Virus record (IMG/VR): IMGVR_UViG_3300027805_000075
Coordinates: 1 to 26,488 of that record
Reading direction: 5' to 3' (one strand)
DNA length: 26,488 nt
DNA from: a virus
In this document: one piece after another, positions 22,622-26,140 of the stretch
Layout of the letters: every line of letters begins with the position of its first letter
Numbering within the stretch: the stretch's first letter is position 1
Notes under the pieces: generated by a model
Told to the model about the DNA's origin: nothing
The model's input: the letters and a program-made list of their open reading frames with translations, nothing else
Database searches by the model: none
Program-made: the position numbers and the translations under genes

Positions 22622-22787
22622 GAGAGTTATAGCCAGTTTGGCTGCCGTGTATCTGGCATTTGCGTTTATATTCGGAAATATAAATTCGCAGCAATGGAGC
22701 GAGGAAGGGCGATTTGCATGCGTGCTGCTATTTTGCGCAGCATTCCTAATTGTTATAATAACGAACAATGATAGTTCTAAGCGATAA
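22611..22787 (+). CDS. Small two-span membrane protein
   Basis: 58 residues: MLTKRVIASLAAVYLAFAFI begins the first membrane segment (about 6-21), then a short polar loop (NINSQQWSEEGR) and a second segment at about 35-51, with a Lys/Arg end. The start overlaps the coiled-coil gene by 11 nt and the end overlaps the DnaA-like gene by 20 nt. It may pair with the preceding anchored coiled-coil protein. No family recognised. Confidence 0.5.
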   Translation: MLTKRVIASLAAVYLAFAFIFGNINSQQWSEEGRFACVLLFCAAFLIVIITNNDSSKR

Positions 22788-23190
22788 CGGCGACCGCATC
22801 GACGTCATGGTCAACGACCAATGGTTTGCCAGCTTTAAAGATTGGCCGCAAGCCATACACTACCAGCACTATCTTAAACACGGCGGTTTGGGGACTGAAT
22901 TGGACAGATTGGGGCAAATTGTTTCCAATATCTATGGCCATAGCCCAGAGCGTTTAAAATCAAAATCTAAGCTTTCCGATTTATGCGAGGCGCGTGTAGT
23001 GTTTTCATTGATTGCGCGTTACGATTTGGAAAAAACGTTTAAAACCATTGGCGCTTGGATGAAGCGCGACCATTCAACGATTATGCACCATTTTAAAACA
23101 TACCACGATTGGCTTGCAATGCCGAATTATTACGGGAAGCAGCTTGAGAGATACGAGGCGTGTTTGAAAGTTTGGAAGGGGGGGAAATAG
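22768..23190 (+). CDS. DnaA domain IV-like DNA-binding protein
   Basis: A 140-residue protein whose second half resembles the DNA-binding domain IV of DnaA: SKLSDLCEARVVFSLIARYD at about 67-86, FKTIGAWMKRDHSTIMHHF at 91-109, with RDHST matching the DnaA signature (GxRDHxTVxH). There is no AAA+ ATPase part. The N-terminal 60 residues form a different, beta-rich domain. It is the last gene before the stretch with GGTCAC repeats, so it is a good candidate for an origin-recognition protein that recruits the primase-helicase encoded downstream. Alternatively it could act as a regulator that binds host DnaA boxes. Confidence 0.75.
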   Translation: MIVLSDNGDRIDVMVNDQWFASFKDWPQAIHYQHYLKHGGLGTELDRLGQIVSNIYGHSPERLKSKSKLSDLCEARVVFSLIARYDLEKTFKTIGAWMKRDHSTIMHHFKTYHDWLAMPNYYGKQLERYEACLKVWKGGK

Positions 23191-23191
23191 T

Positions 23192-23358
23192 GTGACCATG
23201 TGACCATTGACATACCCCCCTTATTTCTTATATACTATTATTTAGTTTAGGGGGGGGTGCCAAAAAACGGGTTTCAAAGGTCACAAAGGTCGCGAGGCTT
23301 GATTTTACTGGTGTTCAATGGTCACGCCAAAGGTCACGCATGGTTGCATTATGTTCAC
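23192..23358. other. Candidate replication origin with GGTCAC iterons
   Basis: Non-coding. GTGACC occurs at 23192 and 23200; its reverse complement GGTCAC at 23279, 23320 and 23332, each preceded by AAA or AAT. Degenerate copies are GGTCGC at 23288 and GTTCAC at 23353. Between the two orientations an inverted repeat ACCCCCC 23214-23220 / GGGGGGT 23252-23258 encloses 31 nt of A/T-rich sequence. An A/T-rich stretch with 16 A residues (23388-23403) follows. Repeats, A/T-rich DNA, a DnaA-like gene upstream and a primase-helicase downstream all fit an origin. Confidence 0.6.
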
Positions 23359-23433
23359 AAATCAATCTCTCTCTATTATCTTCGTAGAAAAAAAAAAAAA
23401 AAATTATAGTAAAATAAATAGGGATTCAGAGGT

Positions 23434-23441
23434 TATATTTG
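23434..23441 (+). promoter_or_regulatory. Candidate promoter of the structured leader RNA
   Basis: TATATTTG, an exact TAnnTTTG -7 box after the A/T-rich stretch. No clear -33 element. Transcription would start about 23447, just before the structured leader. Confidence 0.45.
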
Positions 23442-23452
23442 TGACGTTAACT

Positions 23453-23540
23453 GGAGCGTAGGAGGTTCCGAAAGTTAAAAGATATTGCCCTGTTGGATTT
23501 GTGTGCGCTCCTACCGCCGCAAATCTGATGGGGTTTTTTT
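23453..23540 (+). ncRNA. Structured leader RNA: attenuator with pseudoknot, or small RNA
   Basis: A 14-bp stem (23488-23501 with 23520-23533, four G-U pairs) is followed by seven T, the form of an intrinsic terminator, only 11 nt before the ATG at 23545. Its 18-nt loop (23502-23519) contains CGCTCCTAC, which can pair with GGAGCGTAGGAG at 23453-23464 in two competing ways (GGAGCGTA or GTAGGAG). This would make a pseudoknot. It lies 12 nt after a -7 box, so it is either a roughly 90-nt RNA or a switch controlling the genes downstream. Confidence 0.6.
23488..23540 (+). terminator. Intrinsic terminator/attenuator before the primase operon
   Basis: 14 consecutive pairs with an 18-nt loop and a T7 tail at 23534-23540. 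Being directly upstream of genes in the same direction, it would act as an attenuator unless it ends a separate RNA. Confidence 0.65.
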
Positions 23541-23544
23541 ATTT

Positions 23545-23838
23545 ATGACAAAAAAAGAAAAATTAAGAGCAGTAAACAGATTCCGCGAAGCTCTAAACGG
23601 AAACAATCAAAGCAAAATGTATGAGTATTATTTGTTCTATGATGTTGACATGCTAAGAATGTTGACCAATTTGGAGGTTGAACTATGGAAACAAGGTTAT
23701 CATATCAAAGAAAAAATATCTGAATTGATTACTAATTCAAATTTATTGAAATTAAATAATGATTTTTTGATAGAAAGATATAGGCTCACAAAAGAGTTAG
23801 ATTCAATAATAGACAGCGTCGAAAATGAAAACGACTAA
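23545..23838 (+). CDS. Small helical protein upstream of the primase
   Basis: 97 residues from the ATG at 23545. The longer frame from 23485 starts inside the terminator hairpin and is rejected. The protein is helical, Lys/Asn/Leu-rich (MTKKEKLRAVNRFREALNGN at the start, LIERYRLTKELDSIIDSVEN near the end) and A/T-rich relative to the primase gene. It overlaps the primase-helicase by 14 nt. No family recognised; a primase partner or host-directed protein are both possible. Confidence 0.55.
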   Translation: MTKKEKLRAVNRFREALNGNNQSKMYEYYLFYDVDMLRMLTNLEVELWKQGYHIKEKISELITNSNLLKLNNDFLIERYRLTKELDSIIDSVENEND

Positions 23839-26140
23839 AATATCCGTATTCGCTGGCGTGCTTGGAACGACAAAAGCCTTCGACCTGACATTGGAAGAGG
23901 TTGCAGAACGTCTTAAAACGTCATATAAGGCCGATATAGAGCATATTAGGACGCTTCCGAAGGTTGAGTACGACGAAGCGAAGAAAAAGCTTCACGCGGT
24001 CTTATTTGGAGGCATAGCGGTAAATAGAAACGATAACGACATACAGGAAGCCAGCGGGCTAATGATTACCGACTACGACCATTTACCCGAAGAGGATTAT
24101 AAACGCATTTGGGATAAACTGAAAAATGATAGCCACACGGTATTGATGTTTCGCAGCCCATCAGGTGACGGAATTAAAGCCGTTGTAAGTATTCCAAAAT
24201 CGAGTAAGGACGACTACCGCAAGAGATTTAAAGCATACGGCGATTATATAGACGAGCCGATGTTTTTTGATGTGAAAAATAGCAATATTAGCCGTTTGTG
24301 TTTTGTTTCGTACGATCCTGATTTATTCACCAATTATAACGCGCAGCCATTTACAGAAATTAACGAGCTGGAGCCATACAAACGAGCAGAACGCGCTGCC
24401 ATAATTCCGATAACCGACGAAGATAGGTTGATTGATATTGCTTTGAAATGGTTGAATAAAAACCACCCATACGGAAAGGGTAACCGTAATAATTCAGTAT
24501 TTCAGTTTGGCGGCGTTTGTTGCCGGATAGGTGTGAGCAAAGAAACATGTGAATACATAGCAACGACGCATTTGATAAACGACGATTTTGACCATAGCGA
24601 GGCAGCAGCTGCAATTCGTTCGGCATATCGAAGTAATGTGTTTAGCGAAGAGTTTTTTGAGGATGACCGGAAGCGTAAACAGATTGAAAACGCCATTCGT
24701 TCAAAAATACCAGCGCAGGAAATACAGCAGCGTTTTAGCGTTAATGACGAAGTGATAGCCGAAATTATGGGCAACACTACAAACGACATATTCTGGTCAA
24801 TTGATGGGAAGGGTAAAATATCAATAGACAGCCTAAAGTTTAAGAATTTCCTTGAAGATTCAGGATTTTTTAAATATTTCCCTGAAGGCGCTTTGATTCC
24901 AACATTTGTGAAGGTCAAATCAAATATTCTGTCATTCAGTTCGGCGGCGTTAATTAAAGAGTACATTCTGGAATATCTGGAAGAAAAAGAACCGTCTGTA
25001 TTCAATTATTGCACCAAAAACAGCGCATTGTTTACCGACCAGTTTTTAACGCTGCTAAAATCGATTGATGTTAAAATTTTACAGGACACCAAAGACACCG
25101 CGTTTATTCCATTTCTGAATGGGGTTTTAAAGGTTGACAAAGACAATACCAAGTTAATCAGCTACATTGATATTAATGGCTTTATTTGGGAGCGGCAAAT
25201 TATACAGCGCAACTGGAAGCAAACCGAGGTTATTGATAACGATTTTGCCGATTTGTGCTTGAAAGTCAGTGATAGTTACGAGGTGAGAATGCAAGCTCTA
25301 AGCACGGCGCTTGGTTATTTAATCCATAGTTACAAGGATAAGACACACCAAAAAGCCATAATTTTCAACGATCAGGAAATTGACGACAACCCAAACGGCG
25401 GAAGCGGTAAGTCGATAATGATTAACGCATTGAAAGCTTTTAAAAACGTGGTTGTTATTGACGGCAAAAAATACGACAATAAGGGCGATTTTGTTTACCA
25501 GCGAGTTAGTATTGATAGCCAAGTGTTAGCTTTTGATGACGTTCGCAGGAATTTTAATTTTGAGGATTTATTCCCATTGATTACCGAGGGAGTGACGGTT
25601 AACAGAAAAAATAAAGACGAAATATTTATCCCATTTGAGCGCAGCCCAAAGATATTGATTACTACTAACTACGTCATAAAAGGCACAGGGCATAGCCATG
25701 AGCGTAGGCGGCACGAAATAGAGTTTTACCAATATTTCAACGCAAAGCGCACCCCTATTATGGAGTACGGTAAGTTGTTGTTTGACGATTGGAGCGCAGA
25801 CGATTGGAACCGATTTGATAACTTCATGGTGTTTAACCTACAGAATTATTTAAGCTATGGGTTAATAAGCGCACCGCTTGAGAATGCCAGCCGTAAGCGT
25901 TATATACAGGAAACGTGCAGCGAGTTCGTGGAGTTTATAGAAGATTACCACTTTGACACCTATTCGCCGATATACTATAAAACTTTATTGGCTGCATTTG
26001 TGGAATCAAATAAGGAGTTTAGCAAGCTGACAGCTAAGAAATGGGGAACTTGGATGAAAATATTTATTGAGAATGATGGGCGTGACTGGCACGTTGAGAA
26101 AGACCGAGGCGGTCACTACATAAAATTATTAACAAATTAG
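23825..26140 (+). CDS. Primase-helicase: VirE_N domain plus SF3-type helicase
   Basis: Main replication enzyme. The 771 residues begin with a VirE_N/BT4734-like primase region: SGLMITDYDHLPEED with D83 and D85 as probable metal ligands, and SPSGDGIKAVVSIP at 111-124. A PriCT-like middle follows (about 200-290). The helicase part has Walker A NGGSGKS at 524-530, Walker B VLAFDD at 567-572, and the ILITTN sensor at 610-615 with the RRR near 627-629 as a possible arginine finger. Domain order and length suit D5-like replication proteins of Bacteroidota phages. No DNA polymerase gene was found, so host polymerase is presumably recruited. Confidence 0.85.
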   Translation: MKTTKISVFAGVLGTTKAFDLTLEEVAERLKTSYKADIEHIRTLPKVEYDEAKKKLHAVLFGGIAVNRNDNDIQEASGLMITDYDHLPEEDYKRIWDKLKNDSHTVLMFRSPSGDGIKAVVSIPKSSKDDYRKRFKAYGDYIDEPMFFDVKNSNISRLCFVSYDPDLFTNYNAQPFTEINELEPYKRAERAAIIPITDEDRLIDIALKWLNKNHPYGKGNRNNSVFQFGGVCCRIGVSKETCEYIATTHLINDDFDHSEAAAAIRSAYRSNVFSEEFFEDDRKRKQIENAIRSKIPAQEIQQRFSVNDEVIAEIMGNTTNDIFWSIDGKGKISIDSLKFKNFLEDSGFFKYFPEGALIPTFVKVKSNILSFSSAALIKEYILEYLEEKEPSVFNYCTKNSALFTDQFLTLLKSIDVKILQDTKDTAFIPFLNGVLKVDKDNTKLISYIDINGFIWERQIIQRNWKQTEVIDNDFADLCLKVSDSYEVRMQALSTALGYLIHSYKDKTHQKAIIFNDQEIDDNPNGGSGKSIMINALKAFKNVVVIDGKKYDNKGDFVYQRVSIDSQVLAFDDVRRNFNFEDLFPLITEGVTVNRKNKDEIFIPFERSPKILITTNYVIKGTGHSHERRRHEIEFYQYFNAKRTPIMEYGKLLFDDWSADDWNRFDNFMVFNLQNYLSYGLISAPLENASRKRYIQETCSEFVEFIEDYHFDTYSPIYYKTLLAAFVESNKEFSKLTAKKWGTWMKIFIENDGRDWHVEKDRGGHYIKLLTN

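Follow-up and report, generated by a model that had tools for sequence, protein, structure and literature searches.

A winged helix at the C-terminus of P4 alpha binds the origin repeats, after which the protein unwinds the DNA and primes synthesis (PMC4234260). SaPI Rep and Cch2 use a C-terminal domain to read short iterons that adjoin their own genes (PMC7581432), and proteins of the pRN1/BIP-1 type have been proposed to use stem-loops, iterons being absent (PMC4234260). The window analysed here, a virus record of 26,488 bases taken at its full length, carries opposed short repeats upstream of a primase-helicase gene. We think it likely that this region is an iteron-type replication origin used by the phage's own primase-helicase, and its best reading is an origin of the P4/SaPI type, here with a different, archaeo-eukaryotic-like type of primase.

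Like P4 alpha, the window protein joins a primase, a DUF5906-type helicase and a predicted C-terminal winged helix in one polypeptide. The SF3-type helicase belongs to one Pfam family, DUF5906, in both proteins (E 9.2e-7 for the window primase, 2.5e-9 for P4 alpha). The primase parts differ, however, with Toprim/zinc-ribbon in P4 alpha and BT4734-like_N/PriCT_1 (AEP-like) here, and the Pox_D5 C-terminus of P4 alpha has no counterpart among matches to the window protein. The P4 ori/crr type-1 repeats, like those of the window, are short, lie in either orientation and have TTCAC as their core, and the annotated P4 type-1 (alpha) repeats, CTGTTCACC, are close to the ATGTTCACA array of a relative of the window, L005; the P4 origin is split into ori and crr, whereas the window has one array. 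As in SaPI Rep and SCCmec Cch2, which are D5-type initiator helicases, the array adjoins the initiator gene, but it lies downstream there and upstream in the window, the downstream position being found only in a VapE-type sister family. The window primase forms one polypeptide with the helicase, as in SaPI5 Rep and unlike Cch2. The order of archaeo-eukaryotic primase, SF3 helicase and winged helix is that of pRN1/BIP-1-type proteins; unlike those systems, iterons flank a spacer here and the stem-loop is not conserved.

The earlier note spoke of a genome; the record has the length given above but lacks terminal repeats and is possibly incomplete. From terminase to HNH, the genes follow the order seen in tailed phages, and the database relatives of the primase come from Flavobacterium, Polaribacter, Bacteroides and Maribacter phages. 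Together with the promoter motif described below, these relatives point to a Bacteroidota host. Genome contigs searched with the primase and with the primase alignment gave no prophage relatives. In a separate part of the window, GGAGGTAACAATGA recurs at three gene junctions (21657, 21883 and 22043), where it codes a C-terminal GGNN motif common to small proteins and the start of the next protein, as if small genes were swapped as cassettes at this repeat.

Iterons in the window and its relatives

The elements listed in the earlier note, namely five exact GGTCAC copies with degenerate ones, a C6/G8 hairpin and a run of 16 A, were all found (Table 1), and the array does lie between a DnaA-like gene, whose product matches Bac_DnaA_C, and the primase-helicase gene. 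The single strand from 23190 to 23300 folds, as DNA, with z = -4.0. GGTCAC occurs seven times in the window, five of them inside 146 bp, against at most three in any cluster from 200 local dinucleotide shuffles. A look-elsewhere test is weaker, with some 6-mer reaching five copies per 146 bp in 13 of 100 shuffles. With any 6-mer allowed, such a cluster turns up in roughly one of eight shuffles, so counts within the window do not settle the matter by themselves; it is the relatives, where the identical layout recurs with different iteron letters, that speak for more than chance. GC skew, proposed earlier as a check, is monotonic across the window with a turning point nowhere, and so is uninformative. 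DnaA boxes (TTATCCACA) are absent from the window, which thus lacks the box cluster of a DnaA/oriC-type origin.

Table 1. Features of the candidate origin and the adjoining genes (positions in the window)
Feature	Position	Strand	Remarks
DnaA-like gene (domain IV HTH)	22768..23190	+	PF08299, E 2.7e-11; 140-aa product; conserved neighbour, probably not the iteron reader
Left iteron pair, TGTGACC-A-TGTGACC	23191..23205	-	8 bp apart; GTGACC at 23192 and 23200
Spacer, 73 bp	23206..23278	.	Inverted repeat C6 23215-23220 / G8 23250-23257 with A/T-rich loop; candidate unwinding element
Right iteron pair, GGTCACAAAGGTCGC	23279..23293	+	GGTCAC at 23279; degenerate GGTCGC at 23288
Two more exact GGTCAC iterons	23320..23337	+	At 23320 and 23332
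Degenerate iteron GTTCACA	23353..23359	+	GTTCAC at 23353
16-A run within A/T-rich DNA	23388..23403	+	Not kept as such in relatives
Bacteroidota-type promoter -7 element, TATATTTG	23434..23441	+	Overlapped by degenerate GTGACG iteron, 23441-23446, - strand
Structured RNA, ~92 nt	23446..23537	+	Hairpin 1, linker, terminator hairpin; T-run 23534-23540
Small ORF, 97 aa	23545..23838	+	Between RNA and primase; no family match
Primase-helicase	23825..26140	+	BT4734-like_N, PriCT_1, DUF5906 SF3-type helicase; proposed initiator
C-terminal winged-helix domain	25892..26137	+	Predicted by AlphaFold2; fast-diverging; proposed iteron reader

With the primase-helicase as query, IMG/VR yielded 80 loci, and more remote loci came from later searches. 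In the first set, two primases are close to that of the window (L005, 79%; L006, 75%) and the others are about 45% identical. As the loci were gathered through the primase, its presence beside iterons is by construction, and our argument rests on natural swaps. Iteron arrays adjoin the primase-helicase gene in dozens of relatives from two primase families. In this shared layout, one or two minus-strand copies are followed by a spacer and then by plus-strand copies, often at 8-bp intervals. Exactly 73 bp of A/T-rich DNA (21-37% G+C) separate the opposed groups in L005, L042, L013 and the window, against 84 bp in L006 and 95-97 bp in the second family. The iteron letters vary between phages, all copies jointly (GGTCAC, GTTCAC, CGTCAC and others). 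Upstream of the primase, L005 has ATGTTCACA, L006 has ATCGTCACA and most others have ATCGTCAC[AG]; other lineages carry GCGGCACG, GCAACACA, AGTACACA, CTCTACA, TCCGACAGAT or ATCTTATGC beside it. The proposal of an iteron-bearing candidate origin thus gains support from a layout kept beside the primase in many phages, and conservation of the repeats in relatives, one of the checks suggested at the outset, takes the form of a kept layout with changed letters.

No array was recognised in two primase relatives, L038 and L041; these also lack the DnaA-like gene. Two elements of the window do not qualify as essential parts of an origin: the C/G hairpin is shared only by L006 and, in weaker form, L005, and the A16 run is not kept beyond close relatives. 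Some records hold other repeats: GGAGGTAACAA is present four times in the L006 record, and L001 (~4147) and the L005 record (~25348) contain ACTGCAAGAAC-type arrays, in which a 7-mer that has no relation to the iterons is repeated 15-18 times.

Candidate readers of the iterons

The DnaA-like protein had been put forward as a binder with a new specificity. Its domain-IV helix-turn-helix might bind GGTCACA and recruit the primase-helicase: the array comes straight after the gene in 47 of the 50 relatives with at least 1.5 kb upstream, the 22768 protein matches DnaA_C, and GGTCACA shares CACA with the DnaA box, the constant TCACA resembling the half-box CCACA. This synteny first favoured the DnaA-like protein as iteron reader, but natural swaps decouple it from the iteron sequence, and we now mostly reject the idea as unlikely. 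Synteny between L001 and the window extends through the whole record (TerS 92%, portal 90%, capsid 98%, HNH 65%). L001 encodes the same DnaA-like protein, 138 of 138 residues, yet it carries a swapped primase (BT4734_N, PriCT_2, VapE, DUF5906), a single GGTCAC in 25,992 bases with no cluster, and an array of its own, AAGTTACCC, downstream of that primase. L002, with a DnaA-like protein 95% like that of the window, has ATCTTACCC in the same place as in L001. In a second background, CGTCAC (L006), CTTACC (L138, L140) and CCTACC (L135) go with DnaA-like proteins that are 91-96% alike. Conversely, across 44 loci with CGTCAC the median identity is 34% for the DnaA-like proteins and 81% for the primases; 488 of 946 DnaA-like pairs fall below 35% under this unchanged iteron, and even the DnaA signature motif varies (RDHAT, LKHCT, MAHCT, RHHAL, RGHAT). 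L005 has six iterons, yet no DnaA-like gene was detected in its 25.9-kb, possibly incomplete record. The DnaA-type protein thus does not determine the sites as it would at a DnaA/oriC-type origin, although the synteny of its gene suggests some role for it. The protein has no match in named phages. In L110 and L133, where no array was recognised, each locus encodes two DnaA-like proteins, the first of which overlaps the start of the primase while the second lies downstream.

Alternatively, the repeats could be operators for a regulator of the TATATTTG promoter, which would drive the RNA and the primase operon, with replication starting elsewhere. The degenerate iteron that overlaps the promoter, and the L006 iteron that directly precedes the -7 element, favour this reading. 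Long opposed arrays that flank an A/T-rich spacer count against it, as do the arrays of the VapE-type family, which lie downstream of the primase and before HNH; we regard it as quite improbable. Autoregulation by an initiator could, moreover, be compatible with origin function. A functionless motif clustered by chance would fit the shuffles in which some 6-mer forms such a cluster, but we give it almost no credence: phages whose primases are 45% identical keep the layout and the spacer while all copies change in concert, and this conservation already refutes chance clustering.

We therefore return to the primase-helicase, which is probably the binder and would recognise its own origin, as the iterons track this protein among the loci compared. 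Its C-terminal 82 residues are predicted by AlphaFold2 to form a winged helix (pLDDT 93.5). Foldseek with this domain lists winged-helix proteins in the PDB, none of them significant, and with the full model finds resemblance to AsfvPrimPol, MPXV E5 and RepB'; because the full-length AlphaFold2 model is unreliable in the helicase part, we keep such statements at the level of the fold. Solved structures gave no credible match by sequence, whether the query was the primase, its alignment or a C-terminal profile, and the C-terminal domain of the window has no sequence match to that of P4 alpha or to any solved domain.

This domain diverges rapidly. The window C-terminus is 62% and 49% alike to those of L005 and L006, against 80% and 78% for the rest of the primase, and the divergent parts of the window primase are two, the C-terminal 71 residues and residues 161-320. 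In the VapE-type family, the helicase cores of L135 and L002 are identical and their C-termini 69% alike, with a one-base difference in each of the nine copies of their arrays (ATCCTACCC and ATCTTACCC, respectively). Between L001 and L143, the core is 100% identical and the C-terminus 65% alike, with AAGTTACCC in one and AAGTGTCCC in the other. Identity over the whole C-terminus does not predict the iteron, however, since L006 and the 45%-identity group have CGTCAC in common with C-termini only ~21% alike. Only some residues can therefore matter, and a shared ancestral specificity must be assumed. Iteron letters and winged helix change together between phages, a correlation that would be explained by an origin specificity private to each lineage.

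A structured RNA beside the array

The promoter next to the array precedes a short RNA that ends in its own terminator (Table 1), and the same -7 element stands before the RNA in L005, L006, L001, L135 and L140. The loop of hairpin 1 (GTAGGAG, 23458-23464) is perfectly complementary to the terminator loop (CTCCTAC, 23508-23514). The element occurs in the window, L005, L006, L001, L135, L138 and L140, with either primase type, and a model of this first group also finds L017, L030 and L036. In an alignment of six sequences, a 31-pair structure has 99.5% of its cells paired; ten pairs have changed on both sides, a number reached by none of 500 shuffles, and these include four of the seven pairs between the two loops. 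When candidates were picked from all loci by promoter and terminator alone, 19 distinct elements resulted. In 16 of them the 5' part and the terminator loop are perfectly complementary over 7 nt or more, which is true of 1.8% of mixed pairs. The covarying loop sequences include GTAGGAG, GTGCAAG, CTTCGAC, AATGCAG, GTCTCAC and others.

Several relatives (L009, L017, L036, L052 and L070) carry the 5' loop sequence once more, in the sense orientation and a few nucleotides upstream of the start codon of whichever gene follows, the primase or the small ORF. The terminator loop could thus mask that translation start. The window has no third loop copy near a start codon. A covariance-model search of Rfam gave no credible match, and the RNA is the part of the region least like anything in the libraries searched. 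Its role is most likely attenuation or antisense control of the primase operon.

The P4 CI immunity RNA is a short RNA with an exposed stretch that pairs with complementary stretches of the leader and so controls the replication operon. The RNA described here is, like CI, a candidate for control of a replication operon by pairing, and we claim no homology. Unlike CI, it has a terminator of its own and kissing loops, and the third copy at a start codon is found only in some relatives. Around P4 cI, only two pairs of inverted repeats were found.

A proposed origin mechanism and its implications

In the scheme that we favour, the opposed TGTGACC/GGTCACA iterons would be bound by the C-terminal winged helix of the primase-helicase, and one protein ring would assemble on each side of the 73-bp A/T-rich spacer. 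By analogy with P4 alpha, SaPI Rep and Cch2, the spacer would then melt, the helicase would load and the fused primase would start synthesis. The DnaA-like gene would be a conserved neighbour in this scheme, and the adjoining RNA would probably govern how the primase operon is expressed, acting through attenuation or antisense pairing.

One could envision the region as a private, plasmid-like replication-control module, in which iterons read by a winged helix and an undescribed RNA supply two fast-changing specificities that act as incompatibility and immunity determinants between phages, a scheme resembling that of P4 but evolved independently in phages of Bacteroidota. We offer this as a tentative idea, possible rather than probable. 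If the primase-helicase does read the iterons, these phages would provide natural pairs of initiator and iteron, in which one-base changes of the iteron are matched by changes in a small domain, and the DNA-reading code of D5-type winged helices would become testable. They would also show that an AEP-like primase-helicase, from a class for which stem-loops have been proposed, can use an iteron origin. The neighbouring RNA covaries strongly and matches no Rfam family; we regard it as a candidate for a new regulator of phage replication.
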